Assembly (NCBI RefSeq): GCF_018688495.1
Contig: NZ_CP061320.1
Span: forward strand, 530,586-594,585
From: Polynucleobacter sp. Adler-ghost
Lineage (GTDB): Bacteria; Pseudomonadota; Gammaproteobacteria; Burkholderiales; Burkholderiaceae
Direction: 5' to 3'
DNA length: 64,000 bases
In this document: positions 51,957 to 56,825 of the stretch, in pieces
Layout of the letters: the number at the start of each line of letters is the position of its first letter
How positions within the stretch are numbered: the stretch's first letter is position 1
Program-made: the position numbers and the translations under genes
Notes under the pieces: model-generated
Told to the model about the DNA's origin: nothing
What the model saw: the letters and a program-made list of their open reading frames with translations, nothing else
The model's database searches: none

Positions 51957-52328
51957 ATGAATTTCCGCAAAAACCGCCTCATTCACTGGATTGCTGCCGC
52001 AGCCATTGCGATGAGTGCACTTGCGCCAGCTGCTTCTCAAGCAGTATCGCTAGCGAAGCATGGGCAAGGCTTTGCAATGGAAATTTGTTCGGCTGATGGC
52101 ACTAAATCACAGATTAATGTGCAAATTGAAGAGCAAGCGGATCGCGTAGAAGCGCAGCCATGTCCGTATTGCATTGCTCATACAGCTATCACTCCAGCAT
52201 TCAACACCAACCTCACATTCCAAGCACCGCAAACACTTGCTTTGCTGCCACAGCTTTTCTATCAATCACCCAAGCCTCTCACCGTTTGGGTAACACCCCC
52301 TTCAGCAGCGCCTCCTACACAAGCCTAA
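51957..52328 (+). CDS. DUF2946 family secreted protein
   Basis: A 123-residue protein with a signal peptide (hydrophobic 10-30, MNFRKNRLIHWIAAAAIAM). The mature part has Cys44 in FAMEICSADG and the CPYC-IAH motif (Cys69, Cys72, His75), the DUF2946 pattern. DUF2946 proteins often sit beside copper receptors and chaperones. The Cys/His set could bind copper in the periplasm; this is inferred. It is the first gene of the metal module and is 79 bases before the TonB receptor gene. Confidence 0.8.
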   Translation: MNFRKNRLIHWIAAAAIAMSALAPAASQAVSLAKHGQGFAMEICSADGTKSQINVQIEEQADRVEAQPCPYCIAHTAITPAFNTNLTFQAPQTLALLPQLFYQSPKPLTVWVTPPSAAPPTQA

Positions 52329-52407
52329 ATCTTTTTAGGGCATAGCCTAGCTATGTTGTTAGCAACAAGCCTCAAGCAAGTTGCAGAAATATTGTGTGGA
52401 AAATTAG

Positions 52408-54555
52408 ATGTTATTGAAGCAAAAGAAAATTAGTATATGCATTGGCATGCTATTGGGATCAATCTTGATATCTGGTGGTGCTCAGGCTCAAATTGCACCC
52501 CCTCCTGACTATGATCAGAAATTAGCTGATATGGTAGTGACAGCCACAAAATCAGGTACTACCCTCAGGGATATGACCCAGAACACCACAATTTTGACGA
52601 AAGAAGAGTTGGAGATTGCGCCCGAACAAACGATTGATCAAGTTCTTAAAAACCAGACAAGTGTATTTTTAAACGATCAGCCTTATTACGAAAAAGATCC
52701 AACCGGTCAAAGTATTAACGTCCGAGGCTTGGGTAATGCGAGAACTTTAGTTCTCATTGATGGTGTGCCTGCTAATGATGCGATGTATGGAACCGTACAG
52801 TGGAATTTAGTGCCAATGTCAGCAATCCAGGATGTCGAGTTTATCCGCGGCGGTGTTTCTAGTCTTTATGGAAATATGGGTATGGGCGGCGTGATTAATA
52901 TTACAACTAAGCCAATCAGTGATAACAAGGGCGAGGTATCTGGGAGTATTGGATCCTATGCAACTGGAACGGCTGCAGTGTCAAAGGAATTTGCAATTAG
53001 CAATTCCTTTAAGCTGAGAGCTTCAGCTGACTACTTTAGTACTGAGGGTTACCAAAATATTGCAACAATTTACCCCTCATCCCAATCTGCCCTAAAGACT
53101 GGAATGGGAAATCAAAGTGCGGAGAGTGCCAACTACCGTTTGCAGGGCTCTCTAAAGGTTAGTCAAGATACCGATGGTTTTTTCAATTTCGGACTTCATT
53201 CAATGTCAAACCTGCCTACAGGTGGTTATAACTTCGCTAGAAAATCTACCAACGAGACAACAATTTCCGGTGGAACCACAACAAGGTTGAATTCTAGTGA
53301 ACAGGTTCAAGTTAATGCATTTTATGAAAACACAACTCTGCAGCAACAAAATGTGAGCTCAAGTAATCCATACATCAATGCCACTTTCCATAATCCTTAC
53401 TATCAAGTTGGCGGCTCAGCTCAATATACTAATAATTTTCAAAATTCTCTGATTGACCAGATGATCTTAAGTGCTGATGTAAAGCAGCTCTCAGCATCGA
53501 ATTATCAAAATAACTATGCCTCTCCTGGTGCTGCAAATTATCAAACAAGTAAATTGGGTGCTTTAAGCTCTCAGGTTGTGTCAGAGGGCACGCAAAACTT
53601 CTTGGGAATTTTGGGCCAAGCTAAATCAAAACTAACGGCCATTCCTCTTCAAGCTACCCTATCCGCTAGAGTTGATAATTGGACTAGCCAGATTCCAGTC
53701 AACTATACCCAAGCAGCTGGAGGGGCCCAAGTAAGTACGGCTGTACCCAATCAGTCTAAAACAAAATTAAGTCCAAATTTAGGCCTCTTATATCGAGCAT
53801 CTAGGGAGTTGGATTTTAGAGCTGCCGCTTATCAAGCTTTCCATGCGCCTGGACTGAATAATTCAATCCGTAGCTATGGGTCCGGTTCAAGCTATGTCAG
53901 TAATAATCCATTTTTAACTCCAGAGAATATGACTGGGTATGAGATGGGATCTGACTATCGCTGGAAATCCGGATTTATTCAAGTAACAGGTTTTAATGCG
54001 AATGTCACAAATGCTATCGCTACCTACACCATGACAAGTAGTCAGATTGCAAGTACTTGTGCGCCAGTATGCTCTTCTGGGGCAAAATCTTATAGCAATG
54101 ATCAGTCGCTAAGAAGTACCGGATTGGAGCTTCAAGCTCGCTATGACATTAGCTCTAAATGGGCAACAGATTTGGGGTATACGCTCACTAAGGCTGTATT
54201 AACTTCAACCTATGGGGCGATTGATAAAACTTTAAACCCAACGGGCGTTCAGATAGCTGGAACACCTAGAAATATGGGTAGTGCAAGCCTTACGTACTTC
54301 CCGATACCAAAGGCTAGTTTGACAGCCTCGGTTCGCTACATTGGAAATTCTTGGTATGACACTGCTCACACTTCACCAATACCGGCTTATGCTGTAGTTG
54401 GTGCAAGGGCTAACTATGAGGTAACGCCAAATGCAACTGTATATTTGAGTGCTGTGAACTTATTAAATCGTAATTTCATTACATTTGGTTCTGGCTCACA
54501 ATACACTGCTGGTCAGCCTCAAACAATCACCGTTGGTGGTCGGATAACGTTTTGA
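52408..54555 (+). CDS. TonB-dependent receptor, putative copper receptor
   Basis: A 715-residue outer-membrane receptor. Signal peptide up to about 28 (GGAQAQ). A TonB-box-like ADMVVTATKSG is at about 40-50; the plug (INVRGLGNARTLVLIDGVPAND, FIRGGVSSLYGNMGMGGVINI) is followed by a barrel of alternating polar strands ending TITVGGRITF. The plug is of the BtuB/OprC type. Copper as substrate is inferred only from the DUF2946 and PCu(A)C neighbours; another metal complex is possible. Its stop codon overlaps the start of the next gene (TTGA). Confidence 0.85.
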   Translation: MLLKQKKISICIGMLLGSILISGGAQAQIAPPPDYDQKLADMVVTATKSGTTLRDMTQNTTILTKEELEIAPEQTIDQVLKNQTSVFLNDQPYYEKDPTGQSINVRGLGNARTLVLIDGVPANDAMYGTVQWNLVPMSAIQDVEFIRGGVSSLYGNMGMGGVINITTKPISDNKGEVSGSIGSYATGTAAVSKEFAISNSFKLRASADYFSTEGYQNIATIYPSSQSALKTGMGNQSAESANYRLQGSLKVSQDTDGFFNFGLHSMSNLPTGGYNFARKSTNETTISGGTTTRLNSSEQVQVNAFYENTTLQQQNVSSSNPYINATFHNPYYQVGGSAQYTNNFQNSLIDQMILSADVKQLSASNYQNNYASPGAANYQTSKLGALSSQVVSEGTQNFLGILGQAKSKLTAIPLQATLSARVDNWTSQIPVNYTQAAGGAQVSTAVPNQSKTKLSPNLGLLYRASRELDFRAAAYQAFHAPGLNNSIRSYGSGSSYVSNNPFLTPENMTGYEMGSDYRWKSGFIQVTGFNANVTNAIATYTMTSSQIASTCAPVCSSGAKSYSNDQSLRSTGLELQARYDISSKWATDLGYTLTKAVLTSTYGAIDKTLNPTGVQIAGTPRNMGSASLTYFPIPKASLTASVRYIGNSWYDTAHTSPIPAYAVVGARANYEVTPNATVYLSAVNLLNRNFITFGSGSQYTAGQPQTITVGGRITF

Positions 54556-55826
54556 TAACAATAAAAAACTCACTTTATTGCAGGCGCTTTAATGCGGCTA
54601 AGATTTTAATTCTGGGTCTCTTAGTTTGGGGTGGGATTGATCTAGCTGTTGCTCAGATGGATCACTCATCCCACTCTGGGATGAGTGTGTCTGCCAAGCC
54701 CTCTTCATCATGCAAGGGGTCGGGCCTAGACTGCGCAAATGCTGCAACACCGTTTCTAGATAAAGAGGGTAAGTTGCTTCTGGTCTGGACTGGTGGTGGA
54801 GTTGTTTCGTTCGCTAAATCTGATGATTTGGGAAAGACGTTTATATCCCCTATAGTTATTGCTGAACATGGAAAATCTCTGGATGCTGGAAGCGATGCTC
54901 GACCACAAATCGTTTCTGATTCAAATGGAAATATTTTTCTGACGTATGCTTTTTTCAAAGATTCCAATTGGAATGCTCAGATTAATACTTCACGGTCCAG
55001 CGATGGGGGCGCCACCTTTTCAGTACCAACATCTTTGATTGAGGGTGGATCCAGTCAGCGCTTTCCCTCGGTTTTAATTGGGTCCAATAACTCTATTTTT
55101 ATGACATGGGTTGATAAACGTCTTGTCTCTGCAGCTAAGCAAGGAGGGGAGAAGAGGTTAGGGGGATCCATCGCATACTCCTTTTCAAATGATGGAGGAA
55201 GTACATTTTGGATAGAGCGTATTGCCAATGAAAATAGTTGTGAGTGTTGTCGTATAGGAGCCGCATTGAGTTCTGCTGGAGAGCCTGCAGTGATTTATAG
55301 AGCAATCTTTCCTGGCGGTATTAGGGACCATGCCACTCAAATTATTTCCCCAAAGGGCGCTGGGCCCATTCAACGAGTCTCTGATGATCAGTGGCGGACG
55401 GATGCTTGTCCTCATCATGGGCCAACTATTGCCATTTCAGAGACAGGAAAAATGCACGTCGCTTGGTTTACCCAAGGCGAACGACGATCTGGAGTTTTTT
55501 ATGCAAATTCAGGCAATCAGGGCCGCAGTTACTCCAAGCCTATGAGGGTTGGCGCTGATGGAGCAAATGTATCTAGACCATATCTTTTGGCTCTTGGTAG
55601 AAATATTTTCTTGGTATGGAAAGAATTTAATGGAAGTGTTTCTAGTGTTTATATGAAGCGCTCCCAAGATGACGGGGGGACATGGTCAGTTCCCAGTACG
55701 ATTTTTGAAACATCTGGTTACTCGGATCATCCACTACTCATTTCCCAGCAGGGTAAAGTCTATCTGTCCTGGTTAACACGCATGAATGGTTATCAGCTAA
55801 TCGAGATAGGAAAAAATAATGAATAG
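54552..55826 (+). CDS. Secreted BNR-type beta-propeller, Cys/His-rich
   Basis: A 424-residue exported protein with a hydrophobic segment at about 17-35. At least four Asp-box (SxDxGxTF) turns, at about 90-96, 149-156, 212-219 and 371-378, indicate a sialidase-type propeller. Sialidase catalytic residues are not evident. Instead there are metal-binding-like groups: MDHSSH (36-41), Cys54 and Cys61, CECC (230-233) and ACPHHG (285-290). The TTG start overlaps the receptor stop, so the two are coupled; the next gene overlaps its 3' end. I infer a periplasmic or surface metal-handling protein, not a sialidase. Confidence 0.75.
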   Translation: MITIKNSLYCRRFNAAKILILGLLVWGGIDLAVAQMDHSSHSGMSVSAKPSSSCKGSGLDCANAATPFLDKEGKLLLVWTGGGVVSFAKSDDLGKTFISPIVIAEHGKSLDAGSDARPQIVSDSNGNIFLTYAFFKDSNWNAQINTSRSSDGGATFSVPTSLIEGGSSQRFPSVLIGSNNSIFMTWVDKRLVSAAKQGGEKRLGGSIAYSFSNDGGSTFWIERIANENSCECCRIGAALSSAGEPAVIYRAIFPGGIRDHATQIISPKGAGPIQRVSDDQWRTDACPHHGPTIAISETGKMHVAWFTQGERRSGVFYANSGNQGRSYSKPMRVGADGANVSRPYLLALGRNIFLVWKEFNGSVSSVYMKRSQDDGGTWSVPSTIFETSGYSDHPLLISQQGKVYLSWLTRMNGYQLIEIGKNNE

Positions 55827-56295
55827 ATTGATATTTACATTTGTGATGCTGCTTGCAGCAACTAGCGTCTCCATAGCTGGCACTGGGGTGCCCAAGCCTT
55901 ACCAGGGTGGAGATTGGACTTCTCTTATAAAAACTTCTAAAGGTTCTCCAGTGGCCATTCATTTCTGGGGGGTAACTTGCGCGCCCTGCGCAAGGGAGAT
56001 GCCTCAATGGGGTCAGTTTGTTGCTGCGAATAAGAAAGCCAACGTTATCTTTATTCAAGTTGATGATGTTTCCCCTGAAATGATTCAAAAGATGCTCGCT
56101 AAGGCAAATCTAAGCGAAGCAAAGAATTACTATGTCCATTCCACTTTTGATGAGCAACTACGGTATGAGATAGACCCAAAATGGAGAGGTGAGACGCCCA
56201 TTACTATCTTGATTGACAAGGGCGGAAAGGCAATTAGAAAGACGGGCCCAATGAACTTTTCTCAATTAAGTGATTGGTTTAATAAGAATGATTGA
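55819..56295 (+). CDS. TlpA-like thioredoxin-fold protein
   Basis: A 158-residue exported protein: signal peptide to about residue 20, then a thioredoxin fold with the redox site WGVTCAPCARE (Cys54, Cys57) and the cis-Pro loop GETPITILID. It resembles TlpA/ResA-type periplasmic reductases, which keep copper-site cysteines reduced during cytochrome oxidase assembly. The 8-base overlap with the propeller gene suggests it reduces the cysteines of that protein or its partners. Confidence 0.85.
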   Translation: MNRLIFTFVMLLAATSVSIAGTGVPKPYQGGDWTSLIKTSKGSPVAIHFWGVTCAPCAREMPQWGQFVAANKKANVIFIQVDDVSPEMIQKMLAKANLSEAKNYYVHSTFDEQLRYEIDPKWRGETPITILIDKGGKAIRKTGPMNFSQLSDWFNKND

Positions 56296-56351
56296 TGAAG
56301 TAAATCCGAGATGTAGATCGGAATTTGAATATTAACGAGGAGGATGTATCG

Positions 56352-56825
56352 ATGAAAAGTATTAAATTATTGAATGCTTTATTGCTTGCTGCAGTGGGTT
56401 TTGGTTTAGTTTCTATTGCGCAAGCTCAAAACGCGAAAGTCGGTAGTGTACAAATTGAAAATGCTTATACGCGCGCAACTGTTCCTGGTCAGCAAGTGGC
56501 TGGTGGTTTTATGAAGATTGAAAACAAAGGTGCTGCCGATCAACTTATTTCTGCTAGTTCCCCTGTTGCCGGTGAAGTTCAATTGCATGAGATGGCGATG
56601 GACGGTAATGTGATGAAAATGCGTCAGGTAAAAGATATCGCTGTGCCAGCAGGAGGTGCAGTTGAGTTAAAGCCAGGCGGCTTACATTTAATGTTCATGA
56701 ATATTAAGGCACCATTGGCTGCTGGAGAAACTGTACCTGTAAAGCTCAAGTTTGCTAAGGCAGGCGAGGTTGAGGTAAAGATGCCTGTGAATGCAATGGG
56801 CAACCCAGGCGCAATGAAGCACTAA
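56352..56825 (+). CDS. Copper chaperone PCu(A)C
   Basis: A 157-residue periplasmic protein: signal peptide up to about 25 (IAQAQ), then a cupredoxin-like domain with the exact PCu(A)C copper motif H-x10-M-x21-H-x-M at His79, Met90, His112 and Met114. These proteins hold Cu(I) and deliver it to the CuA site of cytochrome c oxidase. ATG 56352 lies 8 bases after GAGGAGG, preferred over an in-frame start at 56325. It ends the module, closed by the terminator at 56849-56885. Confidence 0.92.
   Translation: MKSIKLLNALLLAAVGFGLVSIAQAQNAKVGSVQIENAYTRATVPGQQVAGGFMKIENKGAADQLISASSPVAGEVQLHEMAMDGNVMKMRQVKDIAVPAGGAVELKPGGLHLMFMNIKAPLAAGETVPVKLKFAKAGEVEVKMPVNAMGNPGAMKH

Follow-up and report, generated by a model that had tools for sequence, protein, structure and literature searches.

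What does an exported BNR β-propeller do among copper genes? The passage of copper through the Gram-negative outer membrane and its hand-over to the oxidases are poorly known, and the copper receptors CrtA and TccA were described only recently. The window, the whole stretch of 64,000 nucleotides (nt) analysed here, covers positions 530586-594585 of the single-contig 2.10 Mb genome of Polynucleobacter sp. Adler-ghost. Downstream of tripartite tricarboxylate transporter genes (TctB, TctA) it carries a five-gene module, all on the + strand, encoding in order a DUF2946 protein, a TonB receptor, the BNR propeller, a thioredoxin-like protein and a PCuAC protein. The receptor gene runs 4 nt into the propeller gene (54552-54555), and the propeller gene 8 nt into the thioredoxin gene (55819-55826). 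One PCuAC, one DUF2946 and one Sco gene were found in the genome, together with five full TonB receptors and two heme-copper oxidase subunit I genes.

The module is probably an operon for copper import and delivery. A preliminary description had named the five families, their common strand and the two overlaps, and all of these are present, with a Pfam match for each gene. Its wider reading as a copper-uptake module stands for a co-directional, conserved and very probably copper-related envelope module around the propeller. It does not stand for the DUF2946 protein, which appears to be a leader, of the type called CruR in Bordetella pertussis, and not a structural part.

A block exchanged at one Polynucleobacter site

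The receptor, propeller and thioredoxin behave as a single unit, an all-or-none block in the genus Polynucleobacter. PCuAC was present in 105 of 111 genomes searched, and 62 loci were picked from these by contig room and rank. The 43 not picked take in all genomes whose PCuAC was least similar, as well as two carriers of the block, G225 and the genome of the window itself. When the window proteins were used in tblastn, all three members of the block were found in 31 of the 62 loci and none in the other 31, with no partial sets. The site keeps CruR on its 5′ side and PCuAC on its 3′ side, with the block, other receptor cassettes or nothing between them. CruR is present in 31/31 loci with the block and in 28/31 without it. 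The pattern was first seen in two Polynucleobacter genomes lacking a propeller match, where CruR and PCuAC were kept with other genes inside.

In place of the block there may be a different TonB receptor accompanied by an exported DsrE-like protein; a third receptor together with a protein of 168 amino acids (aa) and a DsrE-like protein; a 346-aa protein of no family with CASCGCS right after its signal; or no receptor of any kind. Among the replacement receptors, one is weakly OprC-like (TIGR01778, 4.2e-34, 118 bits against a cut-off of 472).

The block has repeatedly come or gone, or changed places with other receptor cassettes. A tree was built from ilvD, which adjoins PCuAC, with 55 of 63 possible rows, the other 8 having too little of the gene. 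It requires 12 changes of propeller presence, an approximate count since each change may be a gain, a loss or an exchange and since ilvD itself may recombine with the site; 8 of these are forced by well-supported branches. Shuffled labels give a mean of 17.8 changes, so propeller presence is partly inherited. Close sisters with different cassettes are found (L209/L234 and L193/L197).

Copper import by the unit is suggested most strongly by what replaces and surrounds the block: a copper importer is the best explanation for an all-or-none unit that alternates with other receptor cassettes between CruR and PCuAC. The swapping of cassettes at a single site within the genus is also a natural experiment in which importers can be compared in related backgrounds.

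The receptors are exchanged separately as well: they fall into two classes while the propellers of all 31 block loci remain 48-74% identical to that of the window. Identity to the window's receptor is 78-97% in L200, L210, L212 and L223; another 26 loci reach 52-59%, and the degenerate L220 reaches 42%. These classes bear on a second reading, in which copper uptake is right and the propeller binds to the receptor or docks with it. The propeller would then be a lectin-like protein of the surface or the periplasm that recognises the organic chelator or the receptor, with cysteines in structural disulfides isomerised by the thioredoxin. The fact that the gene varying in class (78-97% or 42-59%) is the one adjoining the propeller would suit such a partner, but the change of receptor class alongside a constant propeller and thioredoxin speaks against a tight receptor-specific fit. 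The docking role is considered unlikely, though it is the foremost competitor of a copper-handling propeller.

Further observations concern the site itself. An exported CASCGCS protein of 346-370 aa replaces the block in L175 (5686-6723; G031), L198, L201 and L234. The L175 copy has no Pfam or NCBIfam match, and the protein is possibly a further copper-entry protein. Exported DsrE-like proteins go with the alternative receptors. Two CruR genes per site, heading tandem gene sets, occur in L176 (G076), L179, L181, L182, L183 and L202. In L220 (G768) the receptor is broken into several open reading frames (ORFs), the propeller is divergent and CruR is short, a module in decay.

The propeller and its cysteine and histidine residues

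The propeller matches BNR_2 (PF13088) at 1e-9, and its best sequence relative in the PDB reaches an E value of only 0.31. Two alignments were examined, both including the window's protein. The first (A1) holds 38 members chosen independently of the CPHH motif, and the second (A2) holds 65 members collected with a CPHH pattern, so that the CPHH (H288/H289) counts in A2 are not independent. Seven residues, C230, C232, C233, C286, R258, D259 and H302, are invariant in A1, which extends down to 25% identity, and the same seven are invariant in A2. CECCR is found in 37/38 rows of A1 and CPHHG in 34/38; of the 31 propellers in the Polynucleobacter site survey, 30 contain CECC and 29 contain CPHHG.

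Three cysteine and histidine groups had been singled out in the preliminary description. CECC and CPHHG are kept in nearly the whole family, whereas MDHSSH varies, with at least two histidines before blade 1 in 26/38 and 46/65 rows. Judged from the topology of the fold, the CECC, RD and CPHHG residues would be located on the loops between blades 3 and 4 and between blades 4 and 5, and on the neighbouring loop of blade 4.

The fold raises a third explanation, that the propeller gene encodes an ordinary sialidase or another glycan hydrolase and lies in the operon by chance. The BNR_2 match, the Foldseek matches to sialidases and the annotation of most distant plasmid homologues as 'sialidase family protein' are in keeping with this. 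The [FY]RIP motif, which defines sialidases, is absent from all aligned members (0/38 and 0/65). The matches with the best Z scores are seven-bladed, against six blades in the sialidases, and the association with receptor and thioredoxin recurs in several groups. Sialidase identity was rejected on the motif and the gene context, and a chance hydrolase is very improbable. The earlier account of a propeller with Asp boxes and without obvious sialidase residues agrees with these results.

The closest folds also include the seven-bladed PLL/PHL lectins and polysaccharide lyases. The lectin likeness adds to the case for a docking partner, as does the fact that the four invariant cysteines could make two disulfides. 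The invariant or near-invariant C286-P-H288-H289 and H302, on the other hand, exceed what disulfides need.

The family is spread widely. In an even sample of 300 genomes from the window's order, 45 have a match at 1e-8, representing 28 of 134 genera, and 16 of 398 genomes in a sample of the phylum match at 1e-30. A pattern scan of GTDB contigs confirmed at least 580 relatives, of which the best 80 were kept. Distant homologues are present in 48 plasmid records, with the 20 listed at 24-28% identity. In L071 (G107:C1, 600-601 kb) a second propeller is divided between two ORFs and has a TonB receptor gene on its downstream side. With the propeller, copper uptake would gain a component that is widespread, apparently undescribed and open to mutation at a specific set of residues.

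Gene neighbourhood, leader and remaining genes

The fixed unit is the propeller with the thioredoxin, nearly always with the receptor, and under CruR in many lineages. Two samples were used. The even draw comprises 40 loci in 39 of the 45 matching genomes, one of which is counted twice; the window's own and those with weak or partial matches (G002, G005, G072, G073, G137) were excluded. The GTDB figures refer to the best 80 loci mentioned above, with clade groups taken from record titles. Neighbours were counted by profile searches with fixed distances; the receptor and thioredoxin profiles were custom-built and Pfam-checked for the window's own proteins only. A receptor lies upstream of the propeller in 34/39 even-draw and 74/78 best GTDB loci, and a thioredoxin downstream in 35/39 and 77/77.

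Copper genes accompany the unit in most of the best GTDB loci, where PCuAC is near the propeller in 58/71 and a CruR-like ORF is upstream in 71/73. PCuAC follows the unit in Polynucleobacter (23/26), Bradyrhizobium (21/21) and the Reyranella group (12/13). CruR stands ahead in Polynucleobacter (24/24), Bradyrhizobium (21/21), Reyranella and kin (15/16), Paraburkholderia/Trinickia (4/4, before receptor and ExbBD) and the other best GTDB loci (7/8). CruR-like ORFs were found by profile and pattern, and wider versions add L033, L037 and L038 to the even draw. Among 10,537 frames, the first pattern gave 69 forward and 3 reversed hits and the second 58 and 3. All 17 CruR-like ORFs given to Pfam, 4 of them from the even draw, passed the PF11162 cut-off. 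In L115 the CruR frame passes Pfam and an overlapping frame has no Pfam match; a CruR-like frame in L048 was rejected as it is located inside the receptor gene.

Other neighbours were noted in some groups. ExbB and ExbD lie between receptor and propeller in Paraburkholderia/Trinickia (scanned in L114 and L111), and the position of the L111, L113, L114 and L131 propellers behind ExbB-ExbD genes suggests a dedicated TonB system. In L127, the sole Bradyrhizobium locus scanned, a CopC-CopD fusion is downstream. COX1 is present in 39/39 propeller genomes, a count that lacks a control set and was not used as evidence; the identification of polyferredoxin and DsbD_2 genes upstream in L036 and L041 as CcoG-like was unsupported and likewise left aside.

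It has been reported that the DUF2946 protein CruR of B. pertussis is a copper-responsive upstream ORF (uORF) in which CXXC senses copper and a C-terminal RAPP stalls the ribosome (PMC9426467). With copper, Rho ends transcription before the TonB receptor gene (PMC9426467). The window's ORF is the first in its operon, matches PF11162 at 4.2e-11 (44.1 bits, cut-off 23.7) and carries CPYC at residues 69-72. Its CPYC and AAPP (the latter within WVTPPSAAPP) are 44 residues apart, a CruR layout unremarked in the preliminary description, and its gap to the receptor gene is 79 nt; the B. pertussis protein has RAPP at a spacing of 45, with a gap of 162 nt (PMC9426467). By its family and first position, the ORF is most likely a cis-acting, copper-sensing uORF of the CruR type, and not import machinery as first supposed. 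The related leader CutF acts with the opposite sign to CruR (PMC9973294).

The CXXC...xAPP/xGPP layout is present in 59 related loci, with RAPP in 25, AAPP in 23, RGPP in 7, QAPP in 3 and GAPP in 1. AAPP replaces RAPP in most Polynucleobacter CruR ORFs. In Reyranella and kin (L134-L150) the CruR-like ORFs have HECC or CC in place of CXXC, and RAPP or RGPP is kept. The end of the window's CruR holds a candidate Rho-utilisation region, where GC skew is negative in 78-nt windows, with a minimum of -0.62. C-G skew from CPYC to the stop is 0.50, whereas none of 20 windows of equal length in the receptor and propeller genes exceeds 0.21. A promoter scan upstream of CruR found 0, with 0.8 expected.

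The remaining genes are of known families (Table 1). The thioredoxin also matches StoA (3.6e-10), ResA (3.9e-9) and TlpA (2.1e-7), each below its own cut-off, and both cysteines of its CxxC are present in 114/114 aligned thioredoxins. The start of PCuAC is more probably ATG 56352 than TTG 56325, because 21 listed relatives, with matches beginning at residues 1-5, have an in-frame TAG close to where the match begins, and GAGGAGG precedes this ATG. The exact PCuAC motif H-x10-M-x21-H-x-M named in the preliminary description is present as H88, M99, H121 and M123 (numbered from TTG 56325).

Table 1. Features of the module, with positions in the window
Feature	Position	Strand	Remarks
CruR/CutF-type upstream ORF (DUF2946), 123 aa	51957..52328	+	PF11162; CPYC-x44-AAPP; signal peptide by eye
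C-rich, G-poor candidate Rho-utilisation region, end of CruR	52160..52340	+	GC skew, C-G skew
TonB-dependent outer-membrane receptor, 715 aa	52408..54555	+	PF00593 6.8e-38, PF07715 1.1e-22
Exported seven-bladed BNR propeller, 424 aa	54552..55826	+	starts TTG, overlapping receptor stop
CECC codons, residues 230-233	55239..55250	+	C230, C232, C233 in 38/38 and 65/65 rows
R258 D259 H260 codons	55323..55331	+	R258, D259 38/38 and 65/65; H260 28/38 and 51/65
CPHHG codons, residues 286-290	55407..55421	+	C286 38/38; H288, H289 each 36/38 (A1)
H302 codon	55455..55457	+	38/38 and 65/65
Exported TlpA/ResA-like thioredoxin, CAPC, 158 aa	55819..56295	+	AhpC-TSA 4.1e-6; signal peptide by eye
PCu(A)C copper chaperone	56352..56825	+	PF04314 1.6e-41; start moved from TTG 56325

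Several results count against a copper importer under CruR control. The search for propeller homologues lacking copper genes had a mixed outcome: in the even draw PCuAC lies close to the propeller in no more than 4/38 loci, a CruR-like ORF stands upstream in about 13/39, and no copper gene was identified beside the propeller in the remaining loci, which are most of the draw. PCuAC is so common (262/300 genomes overall, 33/39 propeller genomes) that its genome-level co-occurrence with the propeller is uninformative. No cysteine or histidine is conserved across 109 aligned receptors, C551 being present in under half. The C-rich bubble exceeds all downstream windows in 35/59 related loci, with a median of 0.26. 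Expression was abolished in B. pertussis when the RAPP arginine was altered as part of a double change (PMC9426467), so arrest at the Polynucleobacter AAPP may differ, or not work. Some members of the DUF2946-like family may sense other metals (PMC9973294).

These results lead to a fourth explanation, in which the unit imports another metal or an organic nutrient and the adjacency of CruR and PCuAC holds only in some lineages. Their absence from the vicinity of most even-draw loci would fit, as would the occurrence of DUF2946-like proteins near Ni/Co genes (PMC9973294). However, CruR heads the unit in separate alpha- and betaproteobacterial groups and PCuAC follows in three, and another substrate is improbable.

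The proposed copper path and known systems

Copper import and delivery is the preferred reading of the module. During translation CruR would sense copper and set the expression of the rest, by analogy with B. pertussis, where this has been shown. The TonB receptor would admit a copper chelate across the outer membrane, and the periplasmic propeller would receive or strip the copper. From their conservation and topology, the CECC, RD and CPHHG residues may form a thiolate/imidazole copper site. The thioredoxin would keep or reset the cysteines of this site and perhaps help in the conversion of Cu(II) to Cu(I). PCuAC, together with the single Sco of the genome, would then carry Cu(I) to a heme-copper oxidase, a role established for the PCuAC family elsewhere.

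A bolder proposal, tentative and itself more doubtful than copper import, is that the propeller and thioredoxin represent a new class of periplasmic copper-release device. Its Cys/His site would be recharged by a dedicated thioredoxin, a thiol counterpart of the role proposed for CrpH. The pair would be the constant core of a plug-in cassette exchanged wholesale between a fixed CruR and PCuAC, with the receptor also swapped separately.

The preliminary description had suggested an undescribed uptake route. The propeller is indeed uncharacterised and apparently undescribed, but TonB copper uptake under CruR control is already published: CruR-TonB receptor operons are known, also with PCuAC or AhpC_TSA genes (PMC9426467, PMC12914433). 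As AhpC_TSA genes are listed in CruR operons (PMC9426467), the thioredoxin has probably been seen before, and only the propeller and its pairing with the thioredoxin appear undescribed in the literature searched. Among the open-licence PMC papers listed, titles and opening abstracts gave no description of the propeller joined with DUF2946, PCuAC, TonB or copper, and those on Polynucleobacter and copper gave none either. The main texts of PMC12617631, PMC6769254, PMC13038864 and PMC9973294 contain none of the words propeller, BNR and sialidase; propeller and sialidase do not occur in those of PMC9426467 and PMC7558416, nor propeller in that of PMC12914433.

The propeller shares the BNR fold and Asp boxes with GH33 sialidases, PLL lectins and CylK. 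Unlike these, it has the CECC/RD/CPHHG/H signature and a CruR/PCuAC context, and no RIP motif. Among copper operons, pcuABCDE of Bradyrhizobium japonicum is reportedly a copper-starvation operon with periplasmic proteins, the TonB receptor PcuB and the PCuAC protein PcuC; a TonB receptor and a PCuAC are what it would share with the window's module. The propeller operon of other Bradyrhizobium (21 loci) may be this operon or a second one.

The cruR-crtA-crpH operon of B. pertussis shares the DUF2946 uORF at its head, the TonB receptor next to it and the supply of copper for heme-copper oxidases, and a few crtA operons reportedly include PCuAC (PMC9426467, PMC12914433, PMC13038864). Its third gene encodes the PepSY_TM protein CrpH, a putative copper reductase (PMC13038864, PMC12914433), where the window has propeller and thioredoxin. 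A PepSY_TM gene follows the receptor in >75% of CrtA-family loci (PMC12914433), in contrast to the window, where the propeller follows and no PepSY_TM match was found across the genome. The conserved site of CrtA comprises E337/Q356/H358/R395/W265/Y130. The receptors of propeller loci have no histidine in common, and the window's receptor weakly matches the PDB entries 9rvq/9rvx, possibly CrtA. In Caulobacter vibrioides tccA-pccA-sco1, the TonB receptor is needed for the aa3 oxidase, a need rescued by copper, and a PCuAC-type chaperone and Sco are its neighbours (PMC12617631). The tccA region is likened to the window's module by description, and the main text on it does not mention a propeller (PMC12617631). 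The division of labour proposed here would parallel both cruR-crtA-crpH and tccA-pccA-sco1.

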